Part shown: positions 4,401 through 26,548 of the stretch, one piece after another | Numbering within the stretch: the stretch's first letter is position 1 | Layout of the letters: the number at the start of each line of letters is the position of its first letter | Source: a virus | Strand: one strand, 5' to 3' | Length of the DNA stretch: 26,548 bases | Virus record (IMG/VR): IMGVR_UViG_3300032240_000667 | Location: 1 to 26,548 of that record | Made by a program: the position numbers and the translations under genes | The notes under the pieces: model-generated | Seen by the model: the letters and a program-made list of their open reading frames with translations, nothing else | Told to the model about the DNA's origin: nothing | Database searches by the model: none

Positions 4401-7400
4401 TCTATGACAATGTATGCGGGCGATTGTTTAAAAGATATGTTCCGTATGCGCAATGGTAGCGGATTACGAAATGCTACACTAATAGGATTGCAAGGATCGC
4501 TAGGAGCACCTGATGCAAACTTTATTCAACGTCCGACTGGCGGCTCTTATGCTTGCTTTGATCCAGGCACCGGACCTAATGACACTACTGCTTGGATTTA
4601 TAGAAGAAGTCCTTACGTACAAAACGTTACATCATTTGGTAATGGATGTACAGCATTAAAAATAGATGGAAATTTACACAACGGTGGTGCCAAGACTATA
4701 GTTGCTAATGACTTTACACATATTATCAATGACGGAGTTGGTGTATATTGCACCGGACCGGGTGCGCTTACTGAAGTTATTAGCGTGTTCTCATATTATG
4801 GATACACTGGCTATTTTGCAGAAGACGGCGGCCGTATTCGAGCAGCCAATGGTAATACTTCATATGGTACCTATGGTGTTATCAGCTCAGGTTATGATTT
4901 AACTGAAGCACCAGCTACTGGTATTGTATTCAATCAGTCAAGTCAAGTGCAGGCAACGGTACAAAGTGCGTTTGGAACAACATCTCAACTGTTGAGAATA
5001 AATTATTCAAACGCTGGGTCTAGTTATAGTACTACAACTACGAATATGTTGTACTACACTAATAATTTTATTGGAGCTAACTGGGCTACAGATAGTAATG
5101 TTAGTTTTTCAAAAGTAAATCAAGCACCAACTGGATTAGTTGAAGCATGGACTATGACTGGTACTTCTGGGGTAGCTGGTAATAGTTATGTCTATCAAAA
5201 TATATCAGTACCTCCTCCGGGCGCAACTTATACAAATATTTCAGCAGTTAATGTATCTGGTTCAGGTAGCGCCGCGACTTTTGATATTACTGTTACTAGC
5301 ACAGCCTATGTAGTTGTAGTGAATAATCCAGGAAGCGGATATGCAGTTACTAATCAACTATACATTGCAGGTTCAACATTTGGTGGTGTAAACAACGTTA
5401 ATGATTGTGTTCTTACAATTACAGGACTAGCCGGTAGTACAATTACTGCGGTATCAGTATCTGGAGTTGTTCCAATCAATAGCGCATTAAATTACACATT
5501 CAGTGTGTATGTTAAGCAAGGAACTGCTACTAGTATTGACTTATACGGCATATTCTCAGGCACCTCAACTATGACCAGTGCGATTAGTTATAATTTTGTA
5601 ACTAATACAATAACAGCATCAAGTTCAGGAAGTTATACTATTGGGTCAACTGTGATTAATTCATTTACTCCAATAAACTACGGTGCTATAAATCAACAAT
5701 TATCAACAACTAGTCCAACAGCCGGTTGGTATCGTTTATGGTTTACATTAAATGATAGTTTAGGATTAAACAACAATCTACAATTTAGAATATATCCAAA
5801 AGGATATAGCGGATCGGCTAATGCATACACATTTGTTTACGGCTCGCAAGCTGAATTATCAAAGAGTAATTACGTTCCTAGTTTTTATTTAGAAAATGTA
5901 ACTAACACACGTTATACCGGATACGCTAATTTTAACATTAGTGGCGCTGGTACTGGAGTTGTTACAGTTGCAGATGAAATTAGAACCGGTTCTATATTCC
6001 AGACTCGAGTTATTAACGATTCGTTTGGATTCTCAGGTGGTGCAGGTTACTTAACGTCAAGCAACAACGCTCAATCGGGTGCTGATCAATATATTCAACT
6101 ATCACAATCAGATGCAAATACTAATGCTAACTACACAGGTATGAGATTGTTTATTATTAGTGGCGCCGGCGCAGGACAATACGGCTATATTTCGTACTTT
6201 AATGCAAGCAACAAGTATGCTTATATTCTTAAGGAATCATTTACACCATTAAGTATTGCAAGTACTGATAGTGGCACTAATCAATTTACCCTATCATCCG
6301 GCACAAATACTACGTTATATGTTGGACAACCTGTACAATTTATTCCGACTTATTATACTACATCAATTACTTCGACATCTTTAGCACAAACTACAGTAAC
6401 CGCATCAGTTGGTGGAACAACAAATACACTAACAGTAGCTAGTACTGTTGGACTGGCAGTCAACACTTTAGTAACATTTACTGCTACCGGTGTTGGCCAA
6501 ACGTTGTTTACTTCAGTACAATCAAACTATAATTATTATATCTACGCTATTCTTAACAGTACTACAATACAAATTACAAGTACGATATTTGGTAACGTAT
6601 GGCAGTTAAATAGCGGCACCGGTAGCATGACAATGAACTTTAGTTCTAATACTAGATATTTGCAAGCATCAACAACTAATATGGTAGTTAATTTGCCTAT
6701 GCAATTTACAGGAACTGCGTTAGGTGGTTTAAGTAATGGTGTACAATATTATATTAAAGATATTATTGATTCTAATAATTTTTCAATATCGGGATCATTA
6801 GTTACTATTACAGTAACCGCAACTAATGCTAGTAATGGCCAATTAACCGTTACATCTACGGCGGCGCTAATACCATTGAGTCCTATTATTTTTAGTACCC
6901 CGACTATAGGAACGTTTGTAGACGGAACCAAATACTATATTAGTTCTATTGTTAACAGCACAACGTTCACAGTAGCAAGTACACTATTATCATCGACTGC
7001 GACAGCAACAACCGCAGTAAGTAACTTAGTAACAGTTCCTAGTACAACCGGCTATGTTTCTAATCAACCAATTGTGTTTGTAGGAAATACGTTTGGGGGT
7101 ATCACAGCTGAAACAGTTTATTATATTTTAGCTATTAACAACGCAACAACATTTACAGTTAGTGCAACACCTGGAGGTGCGGCAGTTACCCTATCTACAG
7201 CTTCGGGATTAATGACAGCTAGAACTTGCCCAACATATGTAGTCCCAACTAGTGCTAGCGGTGGAAGTATGATTGGTACTACTACAGGAGCTAAAACAGC
7301 AGTAACATTAAGTATCGGTACAATGACAGGAACCTTCTCAACTAACTTATTTGGTAATGTTGTATTAGGTACAACATACTACATTAATACGATACCTAGT

Positions 7401-9674: not shown

Positions 9675-12600
9675 ATGGCAGAATTTAAACTAGGTAGAAT
9701 TAAGTTTGTTTATCAAGGTAATTGGACTACAGGAAACTCATATGTAGTCGATGACGTTGTTACAGTAGGCGGTAAGACTTATATCTGTGTGATCAGTCAC
9801 ACAGCATCCGCATTATTTTCGACAGACTTAACTGCTAACCCAACTAATTGGAATGTGGTTGCTGACGGGTTAAAATGGACCGGTTCATGGGCAACTGCAA
9901 CTTACTACAATACCGGGGATCAAGCACTATACGGTGGGACTGTTTATATTTGTAAAACAGCTCATACTTCTGCCGCAACTACTGCATTGGGTCTTGAAGC
10001 CGATCAAAGCAAATGGGATGCATTTGCATCAAACTTTAATTGGCTAAATGCATGGGCAATTAATACTCGATATAAAGTTCGTGATTTAGTATACTACGGT
10101 GGTTACACTTATGTTTGTAACACATACCATACATCAGCCGCAACTACTACATTAGGTCTTGAAGCTGACCTAAGCAAATGGGACATATTTAATGCAGGTA
10201 TCGCATATCAGGGTAACTGGAGCGGAAGTAGTGTTCGTTACAGACTCAATGACGTAGTAACTTACGGTCCAGATTTATGGATTTGTACAACTTCTCATAC
10301 TTCGACTGGTACAGATTTAGATCTAACTAAGTTTAGTTTATTAGTTAACGGCTTCCAATTTGAAAACTCTTGGAGCTCTTCAACAGTTTATCAAATTGGT
10401 GATATGGTTACATATGGTGGTTATACTTACACTTGTATCTTAGGCCACTCTAATCAAACACCTAGTACTGCGTTTTCTTACTGGCAACCATTTACTACTG
10501 GTTTCAACTATCGTGCAGACTGGAATAGTTCAAATAATTATAGAACAGGCGATGTAGTAAGACTGGGCGGATATACATATCTTGCAATATTAGATAATGC
10601 CGTACAAAAAGTAGTTGGAATTAGCACCACAGTTTCATCCGACGGCACTCGTCCTAATCAAATTACGCTTGCATCGGCTATCGCTACAACCAGCGCATCT
10701 GCCAGCGGCGGGACTGCTACTATTGGATATGCGACCCAAACAGGTATTCCGTTTGCAGTAGGACAACAAGTTGTTATCGCAGGAGTTACACCAACTGTAT
10801 TCAATGGAACATGGACCGTAACAGCCGCATCGACAACTAGTGTACAATTTGCACTTACTGGAACATACGGTCCACAAACTGTTTCAGGAACTGTTTCAGG
10901 AACAACTGCTACGTTAAACGTTGGTCTACCAATAACATTTGGCACAGCATTAGGCAATTTGCTAACAACTAGTACATATTATGTAAACACTATCAATGAT
11001 AGTACGCATTTTACAGTAACAGCAACACAAGGTAGTGGTACACCATTTGCATTGGTAACAGCAACAGGCTACACAACAGGTACTACAAATCCAACACCAC
11101 CATACACCACTTACTGGAATAGATTAAATTCTGGTATACGTTGGAATGATGCCCAACGAGTTTATAGTGCTGTAAGTGCAACTAATGTGGCTTCTTCTGG
11201 AAGTTCTGCAACATTTAACGTTACCGCTTCAGGTACAACATATTCTGTAACAGTTGCTTCAGGTGGTTCTGGTTATGTTGCCGCTGATACTTTAAAAATT
11301 CTTGGAACAAGTCTTGGCGGACTAAGCCCAGCTAACGATTTATCTATCACAGTTAATACTGTATCAGGCGGAGTAATTCAATCTGCAGGCGTTAGCACAA
11401 GCGGTATTGCAGTAACATGGAACAGTAGTGTAACTTATGTGTTAGGTGATGCCGTGTTCTGGGGCGCCAGCAGTTATATTTGCGTGGCAGCCCACGTTTC
11501 TGCATCAGGTAATAGACCCGACAATGATACAACTGCATTATATTGGAACTTATTAGCAGCCGGTGCTGAACAATCAGTTCTTACTACAACTGGTGACATG
11601 TTCTATTATGGTAATAATGGTCCTACTCGTTTACCAATTGGTAGTAATGGACAAGTTCTACGTGTTAATAGTAGTGCCCCATCGTGGTCATACTACGGTC
11701 AAATCAATAATATTGTATATGTTTCACCATTAGGAACTGATGCACTGACTAACGGTCAAGGGACTACTTTAGATACCCCTTGGAAAACTGTACGATATGC
11801 TTGTAAACAACTTGAAGAAGGATATTTAAACACTAATTCAGGTTTATTATTATCTGTTAACAAACAATTTATGTTAAAAGAAGTTAACAACTATATTACC
11901 TACAAATATTCTGTAACAGTAACTAGTTCAAGCTCATCAGGAAATATACTAGGCACTAGCTCAACAGCCAATTTGTATGTTAATATGCCGATTGTATTTA
12001 CAGGTACAACATTTGGTAATATTGTAGCAGGTACAACATACTATGTGTTAACTATCGTCAACGCAACAACATTTACAGTAACCGCAACATCTGGCGGCTC
12101 TTCATCAGTTACATTAACAACTACTACCGGATCGATGGTTGGTACATACGCATACGACACAACTAAAACCGAAAGAGATGCAGGACTGGTAATCGACGGT
12201 GTAATATTTGACTTAACACATGCCGGAACTTTTAAGACTACAACAAATGCTCAATCATATTTTAATACAGCAGGTACAGGTTTAGCTACCGGTGTTAATG
12301 CTAACGATATAACCCCATTCGTTGATGCACTAACATACCTAAAAGGAACATTGTTTAATTCAGTGTTGGCAAACTCCGCTCCGAGTAGTAATTATCAAGC
12401 ATTAAATGGAATTAGTTCAGGAAATAGAGCGATTCAAAATACAACTAGTGTTGCTACATCAGTAGTTGAAAGTGGTTCATTGACTACCGTACAAGGATTA
12501 ATAACACTAATCACTAATGCACTATCAGTTGGAAATACAACCCAACTACCAGCGGCTATCGTTCCATATAATACTGTTAGTATTAAAACAGGCACTTACA

Positions 12601-15600
12601 ATGAAATTTTACCTATCATTGTTCCTGCGTTTACAGCAGTAGTTGGAGACGAACTACGTTCAACTATCGTGCAACCAGCAACTGCAATATTAAATTTAGT
12701 TAATGATAAACCTAAATCTATAGCATCATTACAACGAATTTCTGCCGTATTACCTAACTTATTAACCAACGCTACAGTAACCGCAACTACAAGTGTAATT
12801 AATCCAAATACACAAACGCAGGTTACTAGTTTACCAACAGGTGATACCGGGTCACAAACCGCAGTTAATACTGTACTAAGTGATATTGCAATTATCGAAG
12901 ATATGATTTATAACGGTGTTCAACAAGCACCTGCAATATCTGTACCATCTGTAACTAACTATAACACAAGCTACCTAGTTGGTTTTGGAGACGGTAAGGC
13001 ACAGATTTTACAAAACTATAACTTTATCAAAGCAGAAGTTGCAAACTTTTTAAATGTTAACTATAACGCAATCTGGACTGGGGCAGCTTTCCAGGCAGGT
13101 ATTAATGCAGAAGTATTGCGTGATGTTGGATTTGTTTTAGATTCATTAATCTATGATATGTCTTATGGTTGTAACAATCAAAGTATTATTCAGGGTAGTT
13201 CTTATTATTCATTAAATATTCTTCAAATTCCGACAGCTTATTTGTCAGCAAGGGTGGCTGCTTTACAAAGAGTATCTGCTATTATTAGTCAGATAGTAAC
13301 AGCTACAACAGTATCTGCAACAGCAAGTACAGCACCATATTCTTCTGCACAAGTAACAACTGGTACAGCAGGTAGTGCGGCAGCCGCGTCATTTGCGGCA
13401 GCTCGTGTTCAAGATGTTATCTATTGGATACAGAATGGCGTTGCTAATACAAGTGCTCCTGTAGTAACTGGATCAATATCAAGTACAACAATGACTGTTA
13501 CCGCGGTAACTAGTGGAACATTAACTCCAGGTATGCTAATTACAGGTACAGGTGTAAGTACACCAACTTACCTAGTAAGTCAAGTAACTGGTACTACAGC
13601 AGTGGCTTCACCTACATATTCAAGTGGTGGCGCAAATGGAACAAATACTTTTGTAGTTAGTTCTGCAACAGGCATTGTTGCTGGACAATTCGTTACAGGA
13701 ACAAACATTCCAGCAGGTAGTTATGTTATTTCAACATATACTTCTGGTACAACCATTACTATAGTTAATGCATTTGGTTATCCAAATAACTTTGGTGCAA
13801 GTGCTCCAACTGGTACTATTAACTTCTATACAGCAGGTGGAACAGGAACTTATACAGTAAACACAACACAAACAGTATCAAGCACAACTCTAACTGGAAA
13901 TTCAACAATCACTCCAATTACCAGCGGTGCATATGCTAACGTAGCAACCGCCGCATTACAAACTGCTTATACAGCGTTGTCTGGCAGAGCTACTGAGATC
14001 GCAAGTGACTCTCAAGCATGGGTTACAAAATACTATCAAGCATATCCAATTAGTACTACACTAACTAACAGAGATGCAGGGTTTATTATTAACGGTATTG
14101 TATGGGATGTATTGTTCAGCAGTAATTTTAATGCTATTGTAATCGGACGATCATTTAATAGATCAAATACAAGTGCTCAAGCATTGTTAGCTAATACTAA
14201 TCAAGAATTAAATGCAACAGTTGGTTCAATTAATCTTATTGGATTTAAAGCAAAAACAATCGCAGCCAGCGGTTCAGTTATTCGTGCTCAAGGTATTATT
14301 AACGATATAGTGCAAACTATAACAGGTCAAGTTACTACAACACTAACAACAGCAACAACTAGCACAAATGTGTTGACTGTAGCTAGTACAGCAACTATGC
14401 AAATTGGAATGCCAATCGCATTTACAGGTCTACCAGCTAATATCACAACAACATCAACAGGAACTACCAGTTCGGGAAATACAATTACATTGGCTGCAAC
14501 TGTGGCTAGTTTGGGAGTTGCTGTAGGACAACAAGTTTACTTTACAGGAACTGTTCCTCCTCCGATAGTCCCCAATCAGATGTATTTTGTACAATCAGCT
14601 TCAGCAAGTGTAATTACGATTTCAAACACATTTGGTGGCGCCGCAATCACATTAATCACTGCAACACCAACAGGTACAATGAATGTAATCTTCAATAATG
14701 CGGGCGGATTATGGAACAATAATATATATTATGTTGCAAGTATTCCAAGCACAACTACATTAACAGTTAGTGCTAGTTTTAACGGATCAGCTTATACTAT
14801 TACAAATACTAAATCAAGTATGACTGCAACTGCGGTTGCTGGTATCAGTAATTCTGTAGGAACAGTTAGCAGTTATCAAACAACTAATGGAACGTTGACT
14901 TACGATAATTCAAGAACAACTATCCAGGGTGTTGAAGTATTACGTGCAAATACAGCATTCCTAGCTAGTGAAGCTAGTGCATATACAGCATCTACATTCT
15001 ACGGAAACTATACAACTGCATCAAATTCAACAACTGCTAGCGGAACTGCAAGTAGCATTACCGGAACAACATTAACAGTCGGTGGCACAGTCACCGGAAC
15101 ATTTGTAGTTGGTATGGTATTAACAGGTACCGGAGTAACTACAGGAACTTATATTACTGCTCTAGGAACAGGAACAGGAGGTGCAGGTAATTATACAGTT
15201 AGTTCAAGCCAGACAGCTTCATCAACTACAATTACTGGCACAAGTAACTTGTTTACAACAGCATCAGCACATAATTTATCAGTAGGCGATCCTGTACAAT
15301 TTACTGCACCTAGTTACAGCACTACAATTACAGGCACAAATACTAACGGTAATATTACTGTTAGAACATCTACAGGTTGGTTAGTAGGTATGCAAGTTAT
15401 AGTTACTGGAACACAGATTAGTACATTGAATGCCGCAACTTATTATGTTAAAACAGTAGTTAATAGCACAACCGTTACTCTAAGTTCAACTTATAACGGT
15501 TCAACATTTACACCCGGTGCAACTGCAACAGGTACAATGGCTGCTACTGCTGGTGGTATTTTTGGCGGACCATCTACAAGCACTACATATTATGTATTGT

Positions 15601-18600
15601 CAACTCCGTCGACTACTAGTGTAATACTAAGTCCAGTTCAAGCAGGACAAGGAATACAAAGTGTTGTTCCAGCAATTACTGCCAACGGAAACGCCTCATT
15701 AAATTATTATTACAATCCTACATCATGTTTAAGAGATACTACTGAATTTGTAAATGCATTGATATACGATATTCAATATCCAGGTAATTACAAATCAATG
15801 CGAGCTACTGAATTGTATCTAAATGCAGTCGGTGGCTCAACTAGCAAAAATATGTACCAGGTTAGAAACGGTACAGGTGTCAGAAATCAAACCCTAACAG
15901 GTATTACAGGGACACTAAGCTCAGCTAATAGCTTTGGCACAAAACGTCCAACAGGCGGTGCGTATGCAAGTTTAGATCCAGGATTTGGACCAAACGATAC
16001 AAACGTATGGATTACAAGTCGTTCATGCTATACCGTAAACTGTACTATGTTTGGTTATGCCGCAGTTGGCGGTAAAGTCGATGGCGCATTACACGCAGGC
16101 GGTAACCGTTCTATGGTTGCTAACGACTATACTACTGTTCTAGGTGACGGTATCGGTTATTGGATTACTGGTTCAAACGCACTTGCTGAATTAGTTTCAG
16201 TGTTTAACTACTATGGATATTCAGGATACTTAGCAGAGCTAGGAGGACGTATTCGTGCTACTAACGGTAATAGTTCATATGGTACATATGGTGTTATTGC
16301 TGAAGGAGTTGACACATTTGAAACACCTATCTATGGTACATTGAACAATCGTTATTTTGGTGCACAGATTACTAACGTCGTGACAGATTTGACCAATCAG
16401 ATATTACGATTTGAATATGCAAATGCTGGTTCAAACTATACTAACTCAGTAGCAACTATTAGTGGTTCAGGTTATAATGCGGCAGCGGCGCATGATGAAT
16501 TCCGCGATGCTTCGATATTTGAAACTCGTTTAGTCGACCTTAATGATACTAAAGGAGTTGGCGGATCAAGTTATGTAACAACATCTAATGCGGCACAGGT
16601 AACTAGTAATAATTATTCATTTACTATCGCAGCCACTGATACAGCATTGACTGATGCATATAACGGTATGCGCCTCCAACTTACTGCTGGTACTGGTGTT
16701 GGACAATACGCAAACATTATCAAATATAATGCTACTAAAGTTGCAAATATTGTTCGTGATACATTTGTTCCATTACAAATTACAGCATGCCAGACTACAA
16801 ATAATCTGTTTACTGTGGCTAGTACTGCAACGATGTATACAGGTATGCCACTTTATGTATACACAGCATTTGGTCCATTAACAACTGGAACAGTTTACTA
16901 TGTAAACAGTGCTAATTTTTCTGCCACACAGTTCCAAGTAAGCACAACATCAGGCGGATCAGGTGTGGCAGTAACAGTAGCTAGCAACATAACAACCGTT
17001 ACTGTTACTGTTACGGCAACAGCGATCACAAACAATTTAATAACAGCAACTAATACATTGTCAGCAGGCCAGGGTATTACATTTAACAGTTCGTTCAATG
17101 GTATTGATTCTGGAACTACATATTATGTGTTAGCGACAAACTTAACAACTAGTTCGTTCGCTGTTGCAGTATCTCCGTTTACAACTACAGCAGTAACTAT
17201 TACTGCTACAGGTTCTGCTAGTTCAACCGGTACTGTTAGTACAGGTTTATTTGCCGCTGGATTTGATCATATCGTTGCAGGAACTCCAATTGCATCTGGC
17301 ACAGATTTAACTACTACTTACATTATTGAACCACGTATTAGCTATTCTGCTCCTGGCTATCTACCAACATCTAGAACACTACCAGGGGCGAGTGCAACTT
17401 GGTCAAGTGTAACATATGGTGCAGGTAATTTTGTTGCAATCGCTAACGGCCCAAGTACACGAACTGCTTATAGTACAGATGGAAAGACCTGGACTTCGGG
17501 TGGCGCGATGCCAAGTAGCCAAGCATGGAAGAGTGTAGTATATGGTGGCGGCCAAGGTGCTAGAGCAACCGCAGTAGTCGGGGGTCTAGGCGGACAGGGT
17601 GCAGTACTACAAGCAGTTATTGGTACTGGATCCAGTGCTACACAGATTGTAAGTATCACAGTAGTTAACGGTGGATATAATTATACAACTGCACCGACTA
17701 TTATAATTACAGGCGGCGGCGGCTCAGGTGCTACAGCATCATGCACTGTTTTAAACGGTGTAATTCAAACGGTTACTATGTCTATCAATGGTAGCGGTTA
17801 TACTAGCACTCCAACTGTTACACCTTCAACAAGTATATTATCTAGTATTACTGTTAATTCATGGGGAAGAGGTTATTATACAACTCCAACGGTTACTATT
17901 GATCAACCAGCTGGACTGAGTCCAACTGCGTTTGCTTTGAATACCGCAGTTAGCTTAAATGCTTATATTCAAACAGCGGCCGGTAGAATCTATCAAGTGA
18001 CTACCGCAGGTACAACTGATCTTTCAATAACACCTAGTTTTGATTATACAAGTTCTAGTCAAAGTCAAACTAACGGTACAGCAGTATTAAAATATATTGC
18101 TACTCAAGCTCAGGTTAACACTACAAGTATTTTACAAAATAGCGGAGTATACCAATTACCACTATCAGTAACAGGTTATGGTTATGCTGGTACACCAGCA
18201 GTTACTATCCTTGATAGTACAGCTAAATTTGTAGCTATATCAAACGGTAGCACAAGTGCCGCATATAGCACAGTAGCTAACTTAGGTAATACATGGACTG
18301 CAAGTAGCGGAGCATTACCTGCCAGCAACTTACAGGCATTGGCATACGGTAACGGAGTTTATGTAGCCGTAGGTGGTGCAAGCGGAACAGCAACATGCGG
18401 ATCAAGTAGCGATGCATTGACTTGGATTTCAAGAAGCATAACAGGGTTAAGTGCAGGTTACTATTCTGCAATTACTTGGGGTGCCGGTGGAAGTGCGAGC
18501 GGTACATTCGTAGCAGTTAACAATGGCGGTATTGTTACAAGTTGGTCAAACAACGGTGTAACATGGACACAAGGCGGAAACTTACCAAGCGGATTTACTA

Positions 18601-20351
18601 GTGCAGTTTCTATTGCATACGGTAATGGACGTTATGTTGTTCTTGGATCTGATGGTAAAGTTGCTTATAGTTATAATAATGCTGGTACTCAATCAGTACA
18701 AGGTTGGTATGCGTCTCCAACATGTTCAGGTACAACTACAAGCATATTAAGTTCTAGTTTAACATGGACTGCACTAACTTATGCACAGGGTGTGTTTATC
18801 GCAATCGCTCAAGGTACAGCAACTGCCGCAACTAGCCCAGACGGTATCAACTGGACAGTAAGAACTTCAGGAATGCCGAGCAGTTCTAATTGGGCTTCTA
18901 TTACTTTTGGAACTGTTTCTAGCACAATATTAGGAAGCCAACCATTGTTTGTAGCTATAAGTGCTACTAGCGGAAGTGTAGCAGCCAGTGTCAGAACAGG
19001 CGCAACTACCAGTGCAAGGATGAAAATTGTTGGCAACGGAACTACTAATGCAGTAAATGAAGTTAGATTAATAGAACCAGGTAGCGGATATCCAAAAGGT
19101 AACGTTACTACAACTACAACTAGCACTATAACCGCAGATGATATTACAAACTTATCAACAAGTATTGCTAATAATCAACCAGTTGAATTTACAAGTTTAG
19201 ATAGTTATGGCCTTGTAACAAATACAACCTATTACATAATCGGTTCTAGTGTTACAACAACCTCAGCACCGGCTGGTACCTTTCAAGTAACAGCGTCAGC
19301 AGGTAGTACTACTGTAGCAACACTAGTAGCAGGTACAAGTTTATCAGGTACATATCGTGCAGGTGCAGTAACAACACAGTTTGATCCAAATCGTGTAAAC
19401 ACAGCGCCATTACGTGTACGTATGGGGGATGGTGCTTTAGGTAACCCTAGCTTCCAGAACAGAGGTAGCAACAACGCTACAGCTACAGCTACAACAGGTG
19501 GCGATGGTTATGCTGATACGTATCAAAATTCAGCATATCTTAATATTTCTGGATTGTTTAGTATTCCTCAAGCAGGCGCTAACGTACAGTTTGCGTCAAT
19601 CACTGGAACTAGCCAATGGTATAAACTAGTTGCTGTTACTAATATTTTAGGTACTGCAGGAAATTATACAGCACAATTCCAAGTTAATCCAGCATTAAGC
19701 ACATTATTAGCACCTGCACATAGCAACTTAGTTACTACACGCTTGAAATATAGCCAGGTACGTTTAACTGGACATGACTTCTTATATATTGGTACTGGTA
19801 ATCAAACACAAACTAACTATCCGTTTGTTAATCCGGCTAATGCTATACAGGCTAATCAAACTTATCCAACAGGTGGCGGCCGAGTGTTCTTTACAAGTAC
19901 TGACCAAGACGGTAACTTTAACGTTGGTAACTTGTTTGGAGTTCAACAGTCAACTGGTACTGCTACCTTAAATGCTAGTGCGTTTAACCTAGCTGGTCTA
20001 CAAAGTTTGACATTGGGCGCGGTAACATTAGGTATTGGATCAGCTACAATTACACAGTTTAGTACAGATCCGTACTTTACAGCTAACAGCGATAACATTT
20101 TACCAACACAGAAAGCTATCAAGAGCTATATTACAGCCCAAATTGGTGGTGGACAAAGTGTTCTTAACGTAAATACGATCACTTCGGGAAGAATTTTCAT
20201 AGGTGGTAATACGATAAGTACTACTGACGGCCTTCAAATGTACGTGGGATCAAAAATGTACTTTGCAGGTGGCGGTGGAGCAGGTATAACACCAGGCGGT
20301 GGCGGCATAGACGGAGCACCAGTAGCCTGGTTCTTCTTCAGTCAAAGATAA
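9675..20351 (+). CDS. Giant modular tail fibre/adhesin, paralog of the upstream gene (3558 residues)
   Basis: AGAGGAA at 9661-9667 sets the start. Domain order follows the upstream gene with more insertions. Residues: carbohydrate-binding-like repeats (1-635), the sixth split by C plus E modules and the seventh by a D module; beta-helix start (678-711; [23 protein letters not shown]); a C module (744-826); RD-type motifs at 834, 1149, 1466 and 2020; [14 protein letters not shown] with GDELRS (973-1000); an A module (1256-1415) containing another insert; nested C modules (1554-1720, 1856-2006) and a further A (1786-1854); conserved beta-helix core (2060-2220; [31 protein letters not shown]); two C modules (2369-2526); an Asp-box propeller (2571-3116) with one blade split by about 220 residues; a C insert (3144-3232); the shared C-terminal block (3358-3480; [16 protein letters not shown]) and a Gly-rich end. 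Host-recognition fibre by inference. Confidence 0.85.
9690..11580 (+). repeat. Seven carbohydrate-binding-like repeats, two interrupted, second giant fibre
   Basis: The same W..s..Y..GD.V.YGGYtY.C..HTS..D..kW pattern occurs as in the upstream gene. Two neighbouring repeats are nearly identical ([19 protein letters not shown] and [19 protein letters not shown], near 9963 and 10129), suggesting recent tandem duplication. Repeat six is opened between YLAILDN and [10 protein letters not shown] by about 170 residues (C plus E modules). Repeat seven is opened between GIRWNDAQ and [16 protein letters not shown] by a D module (about 11165-11415). The upstream paralog has repeat seven uninterrupted. 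Confidence 0.7.
17385..19020 (+). repeat. Asp-box propeller with one blade split by a large insert
   Basis: Seven blades can be counted: [27 protein letters not shown] joined to [77 protein letters not shown] and [16 protein letters not shown]. The second blade is cut after YGGG and resumes at KFVAIS about 220 residues later. The insert contains Gly-rich repeats of the type [17 protein letters not shown] and [14 protein letters not shown]. Catalysis is not suggested by the sequence. Confidence 0.7.
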
Positions 20352-20372: not shown

Positions 20373-20705
20373 ATGGCAACAGGTAGATTAAATATAGGCG
20401 GCACGGGCATAACACTAGGAACAGGTAATACAACATTGTATACAGTTCCTAGCGGATACTACACCGTCTTTAACGTTTCGCTAACAAATACTAGTGCAAC
20501 AGCAGTCACATTTCAAATAGCGATTGCATCATCAACGACCCCAAACGCTAACGAGTGGATCGAATTTGGTACAACTCTTATTGGTAAGGGTGTGTTTGAG
20601 CGTACTGGTCTAGTACTACAAGCAGGTTATTCTGTAGTAGGATTGGCCAGCACTGGTTCAGTAGTTAATGCTAGCGTTTACGGCATTGAAACAGCAACAT
20701 CATAA
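20373..20705 (+). CDS. Small beta-rich virion protein, no insert
   Basis: This 110-residue protein follows the second giant fibre by 21 bases, with GGAG at 20360-20363 as ribosome-binding site. It is a compact all-beta sequence: TTLYTVPSGYYTVFNVSLTN, then TFQIAIASS, then GVFERTGLVLQAGYSVVGLA. The order of a TVP..-type strand, an SLTNT strand and a late hydrophobic region beginning V(V/L)xA resembles the core of the protein at 450-1001, so the two may be distant paralogs flanking the giant genes. It resembles short decoration or fibre-attachment proteins of aquatic T4-like phages. The role is inferred from context; no catalytic motif, signal peptide or membrane segment is visible. Confidence 0.6.
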   Translation: MATGRLNIGGTGITLGTGNTTLYTVPSGYYTVFNVSLTNTSATAVTFQIAIASSTTPNANEWIEFGTTLIGKGVFERTGLVLQAGYSVVGLASTGSVVNASVYGIETATS

Positions 20706-20720
20706 TAGAGAGATAATAAT

Positions 20721-21611
20721 ATGGCTCGTTATAATACTTCCGCAATCGCAGCAACGGTTGGTGGTACCACTACAATAACATCACCTGGCGCTGGTTTGTT
20801 TACTGAATTTACAGGAACAGGACCATATACGGTTACAATTCCTGATGCTACACTATACCAAGGTACTACGCAGACATTTTATAATTCAACTAGCAGTGTT
20901 GTTACGTTACAAACACCCCAAGCAGGTCAGTATTTTAAAGGTCCAGGCCAAACGGGTACTAGCAACCAATATGCATTAGCATCACAAGGTACAACAATTT
21001 TAGCATCAGATGGAACATTTTATGCTGTTGTTTTAGGTTCTGGTGGTCCAGTTGCGGCAACTACATTAAGTGCTAGTTCAACTGTCACGCTAAGTCCAAG
21101 CGGTGCAAGCGTTACAATTAGTCCAACTGGCGGGTTGACTGTTGCTCCTACAAGTATTACTGGTACGATTGATAACGTAAACATTGGTGCAACTACTCAA
21201 GGTACTGGTCGTTTTAGTACACTGGTAACAACTAGTGCTACACAAGGTTCTAGCGCAACAAGTGGTCAATCTGTATTGCTTGCAGGCGGTGTTGGTATCG
21301 GCGGCACATTATATACTGTTGGTCTAGTCGAAACATCAAGTATTGTGTTTAAAGAAAATGTACAACCACTAGTTAATCCTTTAGATAAGGTATTAAGTAT
21401 GATGGGCGTTACTTATGATCGTAAAGATGGTCATAGAAAAAACGAAGTTGGTTTAATTGCAGAAGATGTTTATAAAATTGCACCTGAGCTAGTTACACTA
21501 GACGAACATGGTAACCCTTATGGTATTCAATATACTAAAGTTACTGCATTTTTAATTGAAAGTATTAAATCATTAAAAGCTGAACTTGATTCTTTAAAAG
21601 GTAAAAAATAA
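20721..21611 (+). CDS. Tail fibre with C-terminal S74 intramolecular chaperone domain
   Basis: This 296-residue protein has a weak GAGAG ribosome-binding site at 20708-20712. The N-terminal part (1-110) is beta-rich with TVTIPDATLYQGTTQTFYNS, typical of phage fibre shafts. The middle carries GTIDNVNIGATTQGTGRFST and LLAGGVGIGGTLY, linkers widespread in fibres. Residues about 203-296 form a peptidase S74 / endosialidase-type intramolecular chaperone: SSIVFKENVQPL, GLIAEDVYKIAPELV and YGIQYTKVTAFLIESIKSLK. The expected Ser-Lys dyad is present as S206 and K211 with the usual spacing of five. In known members this domain drives trimerisation and then cuts itself off; I infer the same here. Its stop overlaps the next start (TAATG), suggesting coupled translation with the first tip adhesin. 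Confidence 0.85.
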   Translation: MARYNTSAIAATVGGTTTITSPGAGLFTEFTGTGPYTVTIPDATLYQGTTQTFYNSTSSVVTLQTPQAGQYFKGPGQTGTSNQYALASQGTTILASDGTFYAVVLGSGGPVAATTLSASSTVTLSPSGASVTISPTGGLTVAPTSITGTIDNVNIGATTQGTGRFSTLVTTSATQGSSATSGQSVLLAGGVGIGGTLYTVGLVETSSIVFKENVQPLVNPLDKVLSMMGVTYDRKDGHRKNEVGLIAEDVYKIAPELVTLDEHGNPYGIQYTKVTAFLIESIKSLKAELDSLKGKK

Positions 21612-22138
21612 TGGCATCATTACAGTCAGGATCAACAGCTGGCGGTAATCCAATTACAGCTTGGCCTACCGGAACAGCAGTATTGTTTAATCAAACATCG
21701 GCCCCTACCGGTTGGACCAAAATAACTTCATACGGCGATCACGCTTGCCGTGTAGTCGGTGGTACTGTAGGTTCTGGGGGTAGCGTAGCATTTAGTACAG
21801 CATGGACGAATAAAACAGTTAGTGGAACAGTTACTGGTTCAGTACAGAGTACAACTCTATCAACAAGCCAAATACCGAGTCATGTTCACTTTTATTCAGG
21901 CGCACCAACTGATGATAACAACTGGTCGGGAACAGGCGGCAACGGCCAAACATACGGACTAATGTCAGACGCTCCACCATATGTATCAAATGATCCTAAC
22001 TACGGTTATGGTAGATATATGCAGGCTACAGGAAGCGGTTCAGCACACGATCACGGTGCAGTCGGAACATCATTTAACGGTAACGCTTTTAACATTAACG
22101 TAACATATGTTGATGTTATTATCGCAACTAGAAGCTAA
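21611..22138 (+). CDS. Short tip adhesin, copy 1 (paired HxH motifs)
   Basis: This 175-residue protein starts inside the stop of the S74 gene (TAATG). It shares with two later genes a fixed plan: N-terminal strand ending VLFNQTSAPTGWTKITSY, then CRVVGGTVGSGGSVAFS, then IPSHVHFYS, a Gly/Asn/Asp-rich loop (DDNNWSGTGGNGQ, SNDPNYGYGRY), SAHDHG and a final TYVDVIIATRS. Two HxH pairs (H91/H93 and H146/H148) bracket the loop. HxH clusters bind metal in the tips of T4 fibre proteins gp37 and gp12; the same is inferred here from the motif only. Likely a trimeric receptor-binding or tail-collar-like tip. Confidence 0.7.
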   Translation: MASLQSGSTAGGNPITAWPTGTAVLFNQTSAPTGWTKITSYGDHACRVVGGTVGSGGSVAFSTAWTNKTVSGTVTGSVQSTTLSTSQIPSHVHFYSGAPTDDNNWSGTGGNGQTYGLMSDAPPYVSNDPNYGYGRYMQATGSGSAHDHGAVGTSFNGNAFNINVTYVDVIIATRS

Positions 22139-22149
22139 GGAAAAATAAA

Positions 22150-22677
22150 ATGGCAACTCTTGCAACTGGATCAACAATGAACAGCGTGCCTATTTTGGCA
22201 CTTCCATCAGGAACAGTTATGTGTTTCCAACAAACTAGCTCTCCTACAGGGTGGACTAAAATCACCAGCTATAATGATGCACACATTCGTATAGTAAACG
22301 GTAGTGTTAGTACAGGTGGCAGTGTATCATTTAGCTCATGCATGTCATTACAAGCAGTCGGCGGCACAGTAACAGTTACAACAAATGCAATGACCCTATC
22401 AACCGGTCAAATGCCAAGTCATGCACACTGGTGTTCTGCTGCCAACATCGATGACTATAACTTTAGTGGTAGTTCTGGTAACGGACAAAATCATGGATTA
22501 GTAAGTGATGCTGGCGGCTATACATCTAACGATCCAAATTATGGAGCTGGACGATACGGACAAGGATCCGGTGGTGGCTCCTCACATGATCACGGACAGG
22601 TCTCGGCAGGCTTCAGCGGAAATAATATAGATTTAAGGATCAAATACGTAGACTGTATTCTAGCCAGTAAGAGTTAA
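22150..22677 (+). CDS. Short tip adhesin, copy 2 (paired HxH motifs)
   Basis: It has the same length (175 residues) and plan as the gene upstream, with AAGGAA at 22137-22142 overlapping that gene's stop. Shared landmarks are SSPTGWTKITSY, GSVSTGGSVSFSS, MPSHAHW (H91/H93), SHDHG (H146/H148) and a final KYVDCILASKS. The loop between the two HxH pairs keeps DD.N..G...NGQ and SNDPNYGAGRY but differs elsewhere, as expected for a receptor-contact surface. It has extra cysteines (C25, C64, C95, C169) compared with copy 1. It is followed 5 bases later by a small partner gene, a pairing repeated at 22952-23847. Confidence 0.7.
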   Translation: MATLATGSTMNSVPILALPSGTVMCFQQTSSPTGWTKITSYNDAHIRIVNGSVSTGGSVSFSSCMSLQAVGGTVTVTTNAMTLSTGQMPSHAHWCSAANIDDYNFSGSSGNGQNHGLVSDAGGYTSNDPNYGAGRYGQGSGGGSSHDHGQVSAGFSGNNIDLRIKYVDCILASKS

Positions 22678-22682
22678 TTAAT

Positions 22683-22940
22683 ATGAAATTTACAGTTATC
22701 GCCGACGATTGTACAGCATATATTAATACTGTTCCTTTACGTATAGATGTATCTGAGATACCGGATAACGTGCATGCATTACAGTATAATTTAGAAACAA
22801 ATAAAGGAAGAATCGAGTTTAAAATGAATGAAGATGAGATTAGACCTGATAATTTAATAATTGATAATTTGCCCGAATGGGGCAACGAGATACTTAAAAA
22901 GTATCAGTGGGAACAGCTTAAAGGTAGTAAATTTTTTTAG
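22683..22940 (+). CDS. Small VHALQ-motif protein, copy 1; possible fibre-assembly partner
   Basis: This 85-residue protein has TAAGAG (22668-22673) as ribosome-binding site and a paralog at 23566. Shared residues run through the whole length: MKFTVIADD, VHALQYN, TNKGRIEFK and NLPEWGNEILKKY. Proteins with a vhALQ..,.G.IEF..,.LP.W pattern are common beside fibre genes in many phages, usually as hypothetical proteins. Acidic and cytosolic by composition, with no signal peptide. The repeated placement after a tip adhesin suggests a chaperone or assembly partner, but this is inference only. Confidence 0.6.
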   Translation: MKFTVIADDCTAYINTVPLRIDVSEIPDNVHALQYNLETNKGRIEFKMNEDEIRPDNLIIDNLPEWGNEILKKYQWEQLKGSKFF

Positions 22941-22951
22941 GATAAGAAACA

Positions 22952-23482
22952 ATGGCAACATTATTAGCTTCAAACATAGGTGGCGTAGCGATCGATACTT
23001 TTCCAAGTACGACCGCGGTATTATTTCAGCAAACTTCTGCTCCTACCGCTGATTGGACTAAATCAACCACCTATACTGATCACGCATTGCGAGTAGTAAG
23101 TGGTAGTGCAGGCACTGGCGGCAGTGTAAACTATAGCAGTGTCTGGGCTAATCAACAATTTAGTGGTTCAGTTAGTGGTGTGACTAACAATAGTACAACA
23201 TTGTCAACTAATCAAATTCCAAGTCATACACACTGGTGTTCTGCATACCCAGTGGACGATAACAATAGAACTGGAACACAAACTAACGGCCAAACACACG
23301 GTGTAGGTAGTGACGCTGGCGGCTATTCATCTAACGATCCAAACTTTGGTGCGGGTCGAAACATATTAGGGCAGGGTGGTGGCGGCTCACACAACCATAG
23401 TATTTCACTAAGTTTAAGCAGTGGTGGAACGTTTGACCTTAGGGTTAACTATGTCGATACTATCATAGCTACTAGAAATTAA
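22952..23482 (+). CDS. Short tip adhesin, copy 3 (paired HxH motifs)
   Basis: This 176-residue protein has AGGA at 22939-22942 overlapping the preceding stop. It has the same plan as copies 1 and 2: TSAPTADWTKSTTYTDHALR, GSAGTGGSVNYSS, IPSHTHWCS (H92/H94), SHNHS (H147/H149) and a final NYVDTIIATRN. One extra residue lies before the first HxH pair (PTADWTK instead of PTGWTK). The inter-HxH loop keeps SDAGGYSSNDPNFGAGR but varies elsewhere. It is closer to copy 2 than to copy 1 in the WCSA and SDAGGY segments. The second small VHALQ protein follows it. Confidence 0.7.
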   Translation: MATLLASNIGGVAIDTFPSTTAVLFQQTSAPTADWTKSTTYTDHALRVVSGSAGTGGSVNYSSVWANQQFSGSVSGVTNNSTTLSTNQIPSHTHWCSAYPVDDNNRTGTQTNGQTHGVGSDAGGYSSNDPNFGAGRNILGQGGGGSHNHSISLSLSSGGTFDLRVNYVDTIIATRN

Positions 23483-23500
23483 TAAAAGGAAAAACTAAAA

Positions 23501-23508
23501 AATAAATA
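23501..23508 (+). promoter_or_regulatory. Possible T4-type late promoter element
   Basis: AATAAATA is a 7 of 8 match to TATAAATA, in the 83-base gap after the third adhesin. It lies 58 bases ahead of the next start codon. Chance matches are expected in AT-rich DNA, so this is weak. Confidence 0.3.
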
Positions 23509-23512
23509 ATTG

Positions 23513-23540
23513 CAAACAATAGTCCTGGTGATTTTGTTTG
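23513..23540 (+). other. Short inverted repeat in the longest intergenic gap
   Basis: CAAACAA (23513-23519) is followed 14 bases later by its exact reverse complement TTGTTTG (23534-23540). The stem is seven pairs, mostly A-T, and no T-run follows, so it is not a convincing intrinsic terminator. It would lie in the leader of a transcript begun at the nearby promoter-like site. Confidence 0.35.
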
Positions 23541-23565
23541 TAGATATTAAATTTAAGGAATAAAG

Positions 23566-23847
23566 ATGAGATATACTATAATTACAGATGACAAGTTGGC
23601 CTATAAAGATACAACGGCACTCGAAGTTGATGTGTCTGTAGCCCCAGCTGATGTTCATGCATTACAATTTAATTCCAACACAAATAAAGGTTGGATTGAA
23701 TTTAAAACTGACGATTTTGACCATAAAAAACCAAATGAGCCAATTACTGAATTGCCATCGTGGGCTGTGGCCATATTTCACAACTATGATACTGTTGCCT
23801 CGTTAAATACACAGCCTATGACTGGAGACCCAGAAACTGGCCGTTAA
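23566..23847 (+). CDS. Small VHALQ-motif protein, copy 2; possible fibre-assembly partner
   Basis: This 93-residue paralog of the protein at 22683 has AAGGAA (23555-23560) five bases before its start. It matches copy 1 in MRYTIITDD, DVHALQFN, TNKGWIEFK, and ELPSW. It has a longer C-terminal tail (about 17 residues after HNYD) with no recognisable motif. An 83-base gap with a promoter-like site and an inverted repeat precedes it, unlike copy 1, which is tightly linked to its adhesin. A role in fibre assembly is inferred only from its repeated position next to adhesin genes. Confidence 0.6.
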   Translation: MRYTIITDDKLAYKDTTALEVDVSVAPADVHALQFNSNTNKGWIEFKTDDFDHKKPNEPITELPSWAVAIFHNYDTVASLNTQPMTGDPETGR

Positions 23848-23865
23848 TTTATACAGAGGAAGCAA

Positions 23866-24198
23866 ATGGAACTTAAACCCGGAAAATTTTGTCCGTTAAT
23901 AAAAAAAGATTGTGTTGAACTAAAATGTGCTTGGTTTATGCAGGTTAGAGGTAAAAACCCAAATACTGGCAAAGACATTGATGAATGGGGTTGTGCAGTA
24001 GCTTGGATGCCAGTCTTAACTATTGAAAATGCTAATCAACAACGACAAACAGGTGCGGCAGTTGAAAGTTTTAGAAATGAAATGGTTAAAGCTAATAATA
24101 CTAACTTAGAAGTGTTAATGGCAGCGGCCGAAGCGGCACAAAATCCAGCACAAATTACTGCAACAATTCAAGATCCACTTAAAAAATTGCAACGTTAA
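23866..24198 (+). CDS. Conserved four-cysteine phage protein
   Basis: This 110-residue protein has a strong AGAGGAAG site (23855-23862) very close to its start. Four cysteines (C9, C16, C21, C43) are spaced C-x6-C-x4-C-x21-C, within KFCPLIKKDCVELKCAWF and DEWGCAVAWMP. They could bind zinc or an iron-sulphur cluster; this is inferred from spacing alone. The C-terminal half (from about residue 56) looks helical, with RQTGAAVESFRNEMVKANNT and an Ala-rich stretch. I recall similar proteins in aquatic T4-like phages without a known function. Its stop overlaps the stop of the convergent oxygenase gene, leaving no room for a separate terminator. Confidence 0.6.
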   Translation: MELKPGKFCPLIKKDCVELKCAWFMQVRGKNPNTGKDIDEWGCAVAWMPVLTIENANQQRQTGAAVESFRNEMVKANNTNLEVLMAAAEAAQNPAQITATIQDPLKKLQR

Positions 24199-24785
24199 TA
24201 TTCAATCCAGCCGTTTAGCAGATATTTAATACCTGTTAGCGGCGGATTGCCACGATGTGCATGGGTAAAATTGCAAGGATATAATAGTAAGGTTCCACAG
24301 TTAGCTGGAACTCTTTTTTGGCAGTATAAAAATTCAGTTTCTCCGCCCGATTCTACATCATTTAAATATATTTGATAATTTAAAAGTCGATTAGATACAT
24401 GCCTACTACTAGATTCAAAATGCCACTGATGGAATCCTTGACCTGGTAATATTTTTTGTATCTTCATTTGATAAATTGCCTGCTTAGAAGCAGTTTCTAA
24501 TATAGCATATTGATTAACATATGCCGGATAAAATATGTTAGTTATTGCTTCAACAACTTGTTGAGTTATTTTACCGCTATAGCTAATGTCATAGCTAAGG
24601 CTATCACTAAAATACACAGTACTATTATCTCTATCTAGCTTACTAGTGCCATGTTTTTCTTGCTGTCTAGTATAGCCAAATCCTCTAGCATTCTGATGCT
24701 CATAATAATCAATAGCATCTTGACAAAATTCAGGTGTAAATGCTGATGTAAATTCCCCAATAAAATTTTCAAATTTTGTTGTCAT
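24195..24785 (-). CDS. 2-oxoglutarate/Fe(II)-dependent oxygenase, prolyl-4-hydroxylase-like
   Basis: This 196-residue protein has the expected double-stranded beta-helix core in its C-terminal half: PGQGFHQWHFE, then LLNYQIYLNDVESGGETEF, then FTHAHRGNPPLTGIKYLLNG. The likely iron ligands are H122 and E124 (HxE in place of the more usual HxD) and H177. K187, ten residues after H177, fits the residue that binds the 2-oxoglutarate carboxylate. Such enzymes hydroxylate protein or small-molecule substrates, and they are frequent in aquatic T4-like phages with unknown substrates. The start overlaps the Nudix stop (ATGA), so the two are probably co-translated. The weak ribosome-binding site supports coupling. 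Confidence 0.8.
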   Translation of the reverse strand: MTTKFENFIGEFTSAFTPEFCQDAIDYYEHQNARGFGYTRQQEKHGTSKLDRDNSTVYFSDSLSYDISYSGKITQQVVEAITNIFYPAYVNQYAILETASKQAIYQMKIQKILPGQGFHQWHFESSSRHVSNRLLNYQIYLNDVESGGETEFLYCQKRVPANCGTLLLYPCNFTHAHRGNPPLTGIKYLLNGWIEY

Positions 24786-25231
24786 ATCAAATCTACCAAA
24801 TTGAATACTGTTTGAAGCTTAGTACGTATCGTTTTGTTACTAAAACTGTTACGCAAACCTTGATGTAGAGGTTTAGGAGCACGATCAATTATGGCCCACG
24901 CCCATGCACAATGTTCATCACTAAGTGTAGGAACAAATTCGCTTTCAATTACGCACAAGTAAGTGTGGAAATTAAATACAGAATCATTACTTACAAATGT
25001 CTCTATAGGGATAGTTTTTTTAATTTCAGGAAGAAATCCAATTTCTTCAACAATTTCACGCTGTAGACCCTGCCACGGTGTTTCACCTTGTATGGTTGTT
25101 CCGCCAACTAACCCCCAAGTGCCCTCGTGTTTACCGTGAGCTTTTTGTACTAGTAAAAATCGTCGTGTTGATTTAGCGTAGAATAATGCTCCGCTACAAA
25201 CAATGCGTTCTGTTATAGTTCTAGTCTCCAT
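24782..25231 (-). CDS. Nudix hydrolase
   Basis: The protein is 149 residues long. A complete Nudix box G-x5-E-x7-R-E-U-x-E-E-x-G-U is present at residues 44-66 (G44, E50, R58, E59, E62, E63, G65), so metal binding and catalysis are expected. Upstream, FLLVQKAHGKHEGTWGLVGG is the usual strand and loop before the box. The family cleaves nucleoside diphosphates linked to another group; the substrate (mutated nucleotides, NADH, sugar nucleotides or RNA caps) cannot be told from the sequence. The start has AGGA just upstream and overlaps the end of the gp15-like gene by 19 bases; the stop overlaps the oxygenase start by 4. This indicates one transcriptional unit. Confidence 0.9.
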   Translation of the reverse strand: METRTITERIVCSGALFYAKSTRRFLLVQKAHGKHEGTWGLVGGTTIQGETPWQGLQREIVEEIGFLPEIKKTIPIETFVSNDSVFNFHTYLCVIESEFVPTLSDEHCAWAWAIIDRAPKPLHQGLRNSFSNKTIRTKLQTVFNLVDLI

Positions 25232-26548
25232 GATCCTGGCTGATATTCACCTTCAAAACTCTTAACCCATGAAACTCCGTTCCACAAGTATTGTATTCCA
25301 GTGTATATATTCGTTTGCCAGATCATAGTAGTTGAATGTTGAGCGTATGCAAATATTACAACCCATGCACTACCAGTATATTCTATAATATCATTTGCTT
25401 TAGCAACAACATTACCCCATGCAACAGCATAATTAGTAGCAGTAGTACCTGCAGTTCCAGTCCATTGACTATTTTTTGTATTAGCTGTTGATCCTATATC
25501 TTCTATAATTAGATAGCGGGTTCCTGCGGCAACTGTTCCCGGATTAAAAGTCAACGGATTAATTATAGCATCAAACGTACCAGTACTATTAGGTCTATAA
25601 CTAGTAGCGGCATTATATCCTGATTCAAAATCTAAATGTCCTAAACTATCTATGCCGGTATTAGTTACAAGGGTATCAGTATCCCAATTAACTAACATGA
25701 TCACGCTGTCAGTTACATTACCACTAGCATCAACTGGTAGTGCTACAGTACCTACTACTTCAGTTCCATTACTTTGTGTTAAAAATACCCTACTAGATCC
25801 TGCTATAAATTTTCCAGGATACCGATCAAGAACTTCCTGCCAATTAATCGGAGTACCGTTTCTTTGCGGTATACCTAATGTTGGTTCTCTTGGAGTATAT
25901 CCTTCACTAGGTGATAATAATACAGCTTGTCCGATTCCGGATGTATTATTGTATACTTGTAAGACATAATCTGTAATAGTTACAATTTCTCTAGCTAGTA
26001 AATCACCGTAACTAGTAGTACCTGTACCTGCCAGGTCTTCACCTAATCCATCAATATATCCTGTCGGACTAGTTTCAGCAGACCCCCAAAGGCTTGTAAC
26101 AATTTTTGTAATAACACCAAGATGTTTAACTTTAACAGGTGGACTGATCCAGATAGGTGTGTCTAATGTTAGTGTAGCAATATCGATTGGAGTATCATTT
26201 CCTACAGGTACTGTACGACTGCTCCAACCGATATCATTTAAATTTAGGACTGTTAGGCTAGTCCAATCGATATAGTTATCAGTAGTCTGTAATTCTAAAC
26301 TAGGATTAAACAATACTAAGATCTGCTCTAAGATCTGCAACTTTTGATCAGTATTTGCACTCCAGATATCGCATTTCATAGTCAATTTAAAAGGTGTAGG
26401 CATCAAACGTTCAACTGTGTAGTTTCTGCCCTGTGTTTGATTATAAGTTACATGTCCTGTAACAGGATCAACTTGTGTATCGCGTTCACGAAAATGCATT
26501 TTACTAACAAAAGAAGCATCACTAGTTCTATTTCTATCTAATGCAAGA
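25213..26548 (-). CDS. gp15-like tail sheath stabiliser, N-terminus outside window
   Basis: The reading frame stays open past the Met at 26499 to the right edge, adding LALDRNRTSDASFVSK, so the true start lies outside and 444 residues are visible. Segments such as YTVERLMPTPFKLTMKCDIW, TDQKLQILEQILVLFNPSLE, TTDNYIDWTSL and TPIWISPPVKVK match my memory of gp15 (tail completion and sheath stabiliser) in aquatic T4-like phages. T4 gp15 is about 272 residues, so this form is much longer, through a Thr/Asn/Gly-rich C-terminal extension (from about residue 170) ending SFEGEYQPGSWRLEL. It is transcribed opposite to the fibre block. Assignment rests on recalled motifs only. Confidence 0.65.
   Translation of the reverse strand, partial: LALDRNRTSDASFVSKMHFRERDTQVDPVTGHVTYNQTQGRNYTVERLMPTPFKLTMKCDIWSANTDQKLQILEQILVLFNPSLELQTTDNYIDWTSLTVLNLNDIGWSSRTVPVGNDTPIDIATLTLDTPIWISPPVKVKHLGVITKIVTSLWGSAETSPTGYIDGLGEDLAGTGTTSYGDLLAREIVTITDYVLQVYNNTSGIGQAVLLSPSEGYTPREPTLGIPQRNGTPINWQEVLDRYPGKFIAGSSRVFLTQSNGTEVVGTVALPVDASGNVTDSVIMLVNWDTDTLVTNTGIDSLGHLDFESGYNAATSYRPNSTGTFDAIINPLTFNPGTVAAGTRYLIIEDIGSTANTKNSQWTGTAGTTATNYAVAWGNVVAKANDIIEYTGSAWVVIFAYAQHSTTMIWQTNIYTGIQYLWNGVSWVKSFEGEYQPGSWRLEL

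Follow-up and report, generated by a model that had tools for sequence, protein, structure and literature searches.

The window analysed here is the whole of IMG/VR virus record IMGVR_UViG_3300032240_000667 (26,548 bases). Within it, a plus-strand module at positions 20373-24198 encodes eight proteins in the order P0007, P0008, A1, A2, S1, A3, S2 and P0006. Three of these (A1, A2 and A3) are paralogous tip proteins and are the main subject of this report, together with the small VHALQ-type proteins S1 and S2 and the four-cysteine protein P0006. The genes of the module are as follows.

20373..20705, plus strand: P0007, 110 amino acids, unmatched to any family, preceding P0008 in conserved synteny
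20721..21611, plus strand: P0008, 296 amino acids, Peptidase_S74 (chaperone of endosialidase) C-terminus, matches tail-fibre PHROGs
21611..22138, plus strand: A1 tip protein (P0001), 175 amino acids, HxH pairs encoded at 21881-21889 and 22046-22054
22150..22677, plus strand: A2 tip protein (P0002), 175 amino acids, HxH pairs encoded at 22420-22428 and 22585-22593
22683..22940, plus strand: S1 small VHALQ protein (P0003), 85 amino acids, apparently a rapidly evolving duplicate; relative L007 has no such gene between A2 and A3
22952..23482, plus strand: A3 tip protein (P0004), 176 amino acids, HxH pairs encoded at 23225-23233 and 23390-23398
23566..23847, plus strand: S2 small VHALQ protein (P0005), 93 amino acids, the conserved member, of a family that forms the N-domain of fibre-assembly chaperones
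23866..24198, plus strand: P0006 (also labelled C6), 110 amino acids, with cysteines C9, C16, C21 and C43

The stop codon of P0008 and the start codon of A1 share one base, and orthologues of P0008 lie directly upstream of A1 in related loci L005 (78% identity) and L007 (58-59%). The initial annotation had drawn the unit from 21611 to 23847; its genes are confirmed, but its end is placed too early, since the module runs on to 24198 and P0006 had been overlooked. A T4 Gp23 capsid gene is encoded on the L005 contig (E 1.4e-99); none was found in the window or in the L007 contig, both of which are fragments. We take this to be a T4-like lineage of bacterial viruses.

The description of A1, A2 and A3 as three paralogues of 175-176 residues with two HxH pairs at fixed positions is borne out. 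The three open reading frames encode proteins that are 54-55% identical pairwise. Their global alignment scores are 457-513, whereas 500 shuffles of each pair reached 83 at most. The HxH pairs (H91/H93 and H146/H148 in A1 and A2, H92/H94 and H147/H149 in A3) are in register, and their four histidines are invariant across 15 aligned tip copies; in the wider tip family they are found in 102 of 103, 102 of 103, 105 of 105 and 104 of 105 rows. With two HxH pairs each, conserved in position towards the C-terminal end, all three proteins resemble tips of the T4 gp37 and gp12 type. Homology to solved trimeric tail fibres was found by profile, while fold comparison gave weak matches: the tip profile matches 9qgo (E 2e-10) and 9nxk (E 0.0019), fibres of Pseudomonas phage Pa223 that each comprise three chains, and in both alignments the two HxH pairs coincide. 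Among domain families, searches of Pfam at E values up to 1 returned nothing for the tips, the small proteins or P0006, including no match of P0001, P0002 or P0004 to Collar PF07484. The window copies likewise have no match to Gp10_C PF21939 (threshold 27 bits), for which relatives in L044, L269 and L266 give sub-threshold scores of 22.1, 15.2 and 14.9 bits, respectively. The same proteins are unmatched in PHROGs, save for two S1 matches of no weight (E 0.043 and 0.23), and in NCBIfam, save for one sub-threshold S1 match.

The placement of the tip domain in other phages bears on its function. Roseobacter phage CRP-361 encodes the tip domain, a P0006 homologue and a VHALQ protein as gp39, gp40 and gp41, and Prochlorococcus phage P-SSM2 has the same order in PSSM2_028, PSSM2_029 and PSSM2_030 (3.4e-42 for the P0006 homologue and 2e-9 for the VHALQ protein). 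Unlike the window, both phages have a single tip. In CRP-361, it is the C-terminus of a long, 914-residue T7-type fibre (T7 tail-fibre N-domain, 2.4e-25), after which the same small proteins follow, and gp41 bears an extra Phage_tail_APC domain (PF16778, 3.3e-20) behind its VHALQ domain; in P-SSM2, the tip domain is placed behind collagen-like repeats. In A1-A3, about 20 residues precede the tip domain in each chain. Because the domain ends the CRP-361 fibre and follows the collagen-like repeats of P-SSM2, A1-A3 can be read as stand-alone tail-fibre tips, and their assignment to the receptor-binding-tip type is supported by these sequence relationships. A variant of the arrangement is seen in Synechococcus phage S-SCSM1 (L171, 4675-5940), where a long repeat rich in Arg, Pro, Phe and Gln separates two parts of the second tip, each of which matches the tip profile on its own.

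A search with the single protein A1 found seven loci, and every relative with enough sequence has exactly three tandem tips. Comparing the window with L005 and L007, tips at the same position are 65-77% identical and tips at different positions about 52-59% identical, and the three loci give reciprocal best matches by slot. Likewise, in a tree from which two fragments and identical copies were left out (L011-L013 having been dropped as the same contigs as L005-L007), the slots form clades supported at 99/92 (A1), 100/97 (A2) and 100/99 (A3) within one 14-row clade (100/99). Three consecutive tip genes that cluster by position, the arrangement described for the virophage DSLV2, are present in the window and in L004-L008. 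That the three position clades lie inside a single clade points to one triplication in the window lineage, predating the divergence of these phages. A small protein sits between tip genes 2 and 3 in these loci, except in L007. A second triple lineage, L009 and L010, has tips that pair by position with each other and fall outside the A1-A3 grouping, on long branches. Further three-tip arrays (L181, L097, L136, L140, L160 and L165) have one P0006 homologue each, and the tip copies of L097 and L181 are more alike (0.65-0.80), which suggests later triplications.

Since single-tip relatives are the commonest kind (209 of 279 family loci, by a motif pattern that missed some copies), it might be supposed that a single copy is functional and that duplication left the other two as redundant remnants. 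We consider this scarcely credible. No tip frame is broken in the window or in L004, L005, L006 or L007 (in L008, the contig end truncates copy 1), and nonsynonymous change lies far below synonymous change in every slot, as detailed below.

The loop between the HxH pairs had been described as variable. Between A1, A2 and A3, it is 52-63% identical, about equal to the N-terminal part (51-57%), and between phages it is the most conserved segment of each tip copy. When loci were matched at a P0006 identity of 0.70-0.85, same-slot orthologues of the window clade had a loop identity of 0.84 (17 pairs, 15 of them at least 0.79) and a body identity of 0.62. At the same P0006 identity, loop identity was 0.27 in single-tip loci (589 pairs from 105 loci, two pairs at least 0.79; body 0.62), 0.47 by slot in two-tip loci (126 pairs) and 0.24 by slot in other three-tip loci (3 pairs), with mean body identities of 0.60-0.62 in all four matched sets. 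In nine codon comparisons, nonsynonymous difference was 0.044-0.155 in loops and 0.222-0.323 in bodies, whereas synonymous difference was near saturation in both (0.54-0.83 and 0.57-0.76, respectively), so that amino-acid change in the loop is 1.6 to 6 times below that in the body. The combination of near-saturated synonymous sites and few replacements indicates that the loop of each slot is held by purifying selection and is not the product of a recent swap. Loop conservation and the codon data exclude a hypervariable receptor loop in the window clade. Variability is a property of the wider family only, where bodies 55-90% identical carry loops with a mean identity of 0.25 (7,708 pairs outside the window clade; 291 of 355 tips were parsed, 64 were not, and 228 unique ones were used).

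These observations bear on the proposal that the three proteins are alternative tips, used one at a time or exchanged to alter host range. Such a scheme would suit the hypervariable loops of the family, which resemble receptor-binding loops generally, but we regard it as improbable for this module: every slot has been retained as a separate clade, and the loop frozen within each is the most conserved part of the protein. The pattern suggests instead a tip built from three different chains that are not interchangeable spares. Frozen slot-specific loops would be expected from fixed contacts between three unlike chains, or from three fixed ligands.

Two of the three adhesins are each followed by a small VHALQ paralogue, as first noted: S1 begins 5 nucleotides after A2 and S2 begins 83 nucleotides after A3. 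S1 and S2 are identical at 34 of 85 positions (40%), with a score of 156 against a shuffle maximum of 46. The tree joins them as sisters (support 82, from few columns). The branches leading to S1 are long, and it has the look of a rapidly evolving copy of S2. A profile built from seven VHALQ proteins gave 459 stretches in viral contigs, of which 385 were confirmed and the best 80 kept as 79 loci; the VHALQ set examined comprises 82 loci (the window, L004-L010 and L014-L087). This and the sets below are best-scoring subsets of larger match lists with overlapping contigs, and the fractions describe those subsets. A tip gene accompanies the VHALQ gene in 78 of the 82 loci and a P0006 homologue is present in 80, the commonest order being tip, P0006, VHALQ (57 of 82). 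Longer relatives join the VHALQ domain to a tail-assembly-chaperone domain, namely PF16778 in CRP-361 gp41 and DUF4376 (PF14301, 2.5e-23) in bacterial locus L284. Neither PF16778 nor PF14301 was matched in S1 or S2, and since those domains were found just in the longer relatives, S1 and S2 share only the N-domain of the chaperones. DUF4376 is also the domain of the downstream chaperone in the pairs V22 gp26/gp27 and A5 gp8/gp9; V22 gp27 is described as an essential chaperone for a functional fibre (PMC7289586). The available passages on V22 and A5 make no claim of a P0006 homologue or of HxH pairs, in which respect the two systems differ from the window.

The initial annotation saw the small proteins as dedicated assembly partners of the tips. 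The tip type and the link to fibre assembly both stand, given CRP-361, the matches to 9qgo and 9nxk, and the PF16778 and DUF4376 fusions. A pairing of one small partner with each adhesin is ruled out, however: VHALQ genes are fewer than tips in 61 of 65 multi-tip loci and equal in only 4 (counted among 279 loci, same-contig repeats included), and L007 keeps three adhesins with one small protein and none between A2 and A3. S2 may act as a folding and trimerisation helper, with S1 a dispensable extra copy.

The four cysteines of P0006 are invariant in 44 aligned sequences. A P0006-centred search confirmed 553 matches, and in the best 80 viral loci kept from these a tip gene is present in all 80 and a VHALQ gene in 48. 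The corresponding tip-centred search confirmed 543, and among its best 80 loci P0006 is present in 75 and a VHALQ gene in 70; of the five loci that lack P0006, the sequence stops with the tip gene in three, runs on for 452 nucleotides in one, and leaves room for P0006 only in L214. In bacterial loci, the tip lies beside P0006 in 37 of 38, the remaining one having P0006 at a contig start, and a VHALQ gene is present in 21 of the 38. These bacterial pairs (L251-L288, many from Nitrosospira, others from Mesorhizobium and Desulfovibrio) are presumably prophages. The 161 P0006 loci fall into 99 clusters at 90% identity, and each of the 65 multi-tip loci has exactly one P0006, whatever the number of tips. 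P0006 is a near-constant partner of the tip. In L039, it sits behind a fibre with a different end. The family is unnamed in Pfam, PHROGs and NCBIfam, including PHROGs searches with 43 P0006 relatives. A fold search from a low-confidence model gave no match below E 1.4, and we found no paper in the open-access literature that deals with P0006 or describes the cassette for a tailed phage. P0006 is also a marker of HxH tips in genomes whose tip proteins match neither Pfam nor PHROGs.

The VHALQ proteins and P0006 could belong to the virion itself, as caps or as subunits of the tip, instead of helping in assembly. DUF4376 chaperones of the A5 and V22 type may indeed remain as transient caps (PMC10579305). 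However, the fusions of VHALQ with tail-assembly-chaperone domains speak against this, neither VHALQ nor P0006 numbers per locus track tip number, and we judge a structural role to be a slim prospect.

Taken with the slot data, these results lead us to favour, tentatively, the reading that these genes encode the distal tip of a tail fibre in a T4-like phage, and that its three non-interchangeable tip chains, most likely forming one A1:A2:A3 heterotrimer, are aided by S2 and P0006. The initial annotation had allowed for mixed tips, and a heterotrimer is the form of that idea we prefer. The three double-HxH chains, their order and their own loops kept since triplication, would act together, with receptor binding as their presumed function. 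We prefer a single A1:A2:A3 trimer because the solved relatives are three-chained and because DSLV2 shows that three unlike chains are possible. In that virophage, three collar tail proteins, encoded in a row and each falling into a clade of its own position, gave a 1:1:1 heterotrimer on co-expression, a result reported to be backed also by native polyacrylamide gel electrophoresis and electron microscopy (PMC12724248). The likeness to the window is one of gene arrangement: three consecutive, similarly long collar-type tip proteins that cluster by gene position. The authors of that work relate the DSLV2 tail proteins to Synechococcus phage tails (PMC12724248). DSLV2 tails differ from the window tips in standing on a virophage capsid and in being reported with PF07484; the window tips are those of a tailed phage, lack a match to that family and are accompanied by VHALQ and four-cysteine partners. 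The 'heterotrimer' of cyanophage A-1(L) was set aside as a precedent, since it concerns baseplate wedges and not fibres.

The chief competing explanation is that A1, A2 and A3 form three separate homotrimers, side by side in the virion, which are carried by different fibres or by one that branches and which each recognise a fixed receptor of their own. In 9qgo, a 434-residue fibre, and in 9nxk, the three chains are copies of one chain type, unlike the arrangement we propose; the prevalence of single-copy tips likewise indicates that one chain can make a tip, and branched multi-spike phages such as CBA120 are reported (PMC8825819). However, the short stretch ahead of the tip domain leaves little room for three different anchors, no near relative with sufficient sequence lacks any of the three tips, and DSLV2 is a precedent for mixed chains. 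Three homotrimers are a possibility to be taken seriously, although we doubt it.

Within an A1:A2:A3 trimer, each HxH layer would bring together six histidines from three different chains and could hold one metal ion. T4 gp12 contains zinc. Metal binding by the HxH layers here is proposed by analogy with T4 gp37, for which seven irons are quoted in PMC11705849. P0006, present once per array, would assist maturation, for example by acting on the tip's metal or thiol state. Such a role is suggested by the cysteines of P0006 and by its steady presence next to HxH tips, and this is the weakest step of the scheme. The full proposal, of an obligate three-product heterotrimer tip in a tailed phage with each HxH metal site drawn from three chains, and of a P0006 family that is a dedicated metal-loading or thiol-handling maturation factor beside nearly all such double-HxH tips of phages and bacterial genomes, we consider unlikely as a whole. 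How metal enters HxH tips and whether a tailed phage can build a tip from three different chains are nonetheless questions approachable with five or six small genes.

Several observations weigh against the heterotrimer scheme. The frozen slot-specific loops would also fit three homotrimers with three fixed ligands. The window core clade represents three independent lineages, so that its 17 loop pairs are non-independent; loops of the L009/L010 triple lineage are unconserved by slot (mean 0.24, n = 3); and L165, with three tips, shows no slot pairing with L009 and L010. The structure predictions are of single chains only. The monomer tip model is weak in the loop (mean predicted local distance difference test score, pLDDT, of 74; predicted template-modelling score, pTM, of 0.49), and its fold matches are weak, with a best Foldseek E of 0.19 and a best Z of 3.7 (VIA-align listed five matches, at Z 3.7 and below). 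The AlphaFold2 model of P0006 is not confident (pLDDT 65, pTM 0.28), and its cysteine site is putative.

Noncoding features of the window were also surveyed. A DNA repeat scan found repeats that merely mirror the gene duplications, no further search for a switching element having been made, and a promoter scan yielded nothing usable, its 20 candidates comparing with a mean of 13.9 in shuffled sequence. The 83-nucleotide gap before S2 (23483-23565) holds AATAAATA at 23501, which resembles a T4 late promoter; it is a single match in AT-rich DNA and carries no weight. Outside the module, the window encodes the following proteins.

1413-9620, plus strand: giant protein of 2735 amino acids, short similar modules repeated N-terminally
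9675-20351, plus strand: giant protein of 3558 amino acids, likewise with short similar modules repeated N-terminally
24195-24785, minus strand: 2-oxoglutarate (2OG)-Fe(II) oxygenase (PF13640 6.8e-9, PHROG 61), directly downstream of the module
24782-25231, minus strand: NUDIX hydrolase (PF00293 1.3e-14)
25213-26499, minus strand: 428-amino-acid protein

The NUDIX hydrolase is retained beside the module in L005 and L007 (82-85% identical), and the 428-amino-acid protein has homologues at the same place in both loci (60-69% identical). The 3558-residue protein is 68% identical over 2,271 residues to an L005 protein, which is 37% identical to the 2735-residue protein over 681. Oxygenases of the 2OG-Fe(II) kind also lie near tip genes in P-SSM2 (piuC), S-SCSM2R and S-SCSM1 and, by eye, in L160. 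Because the P-SSM2 fibre has collagen-like repeats, the oxygenase could possibly be a fibre-modifying hydroxylase.

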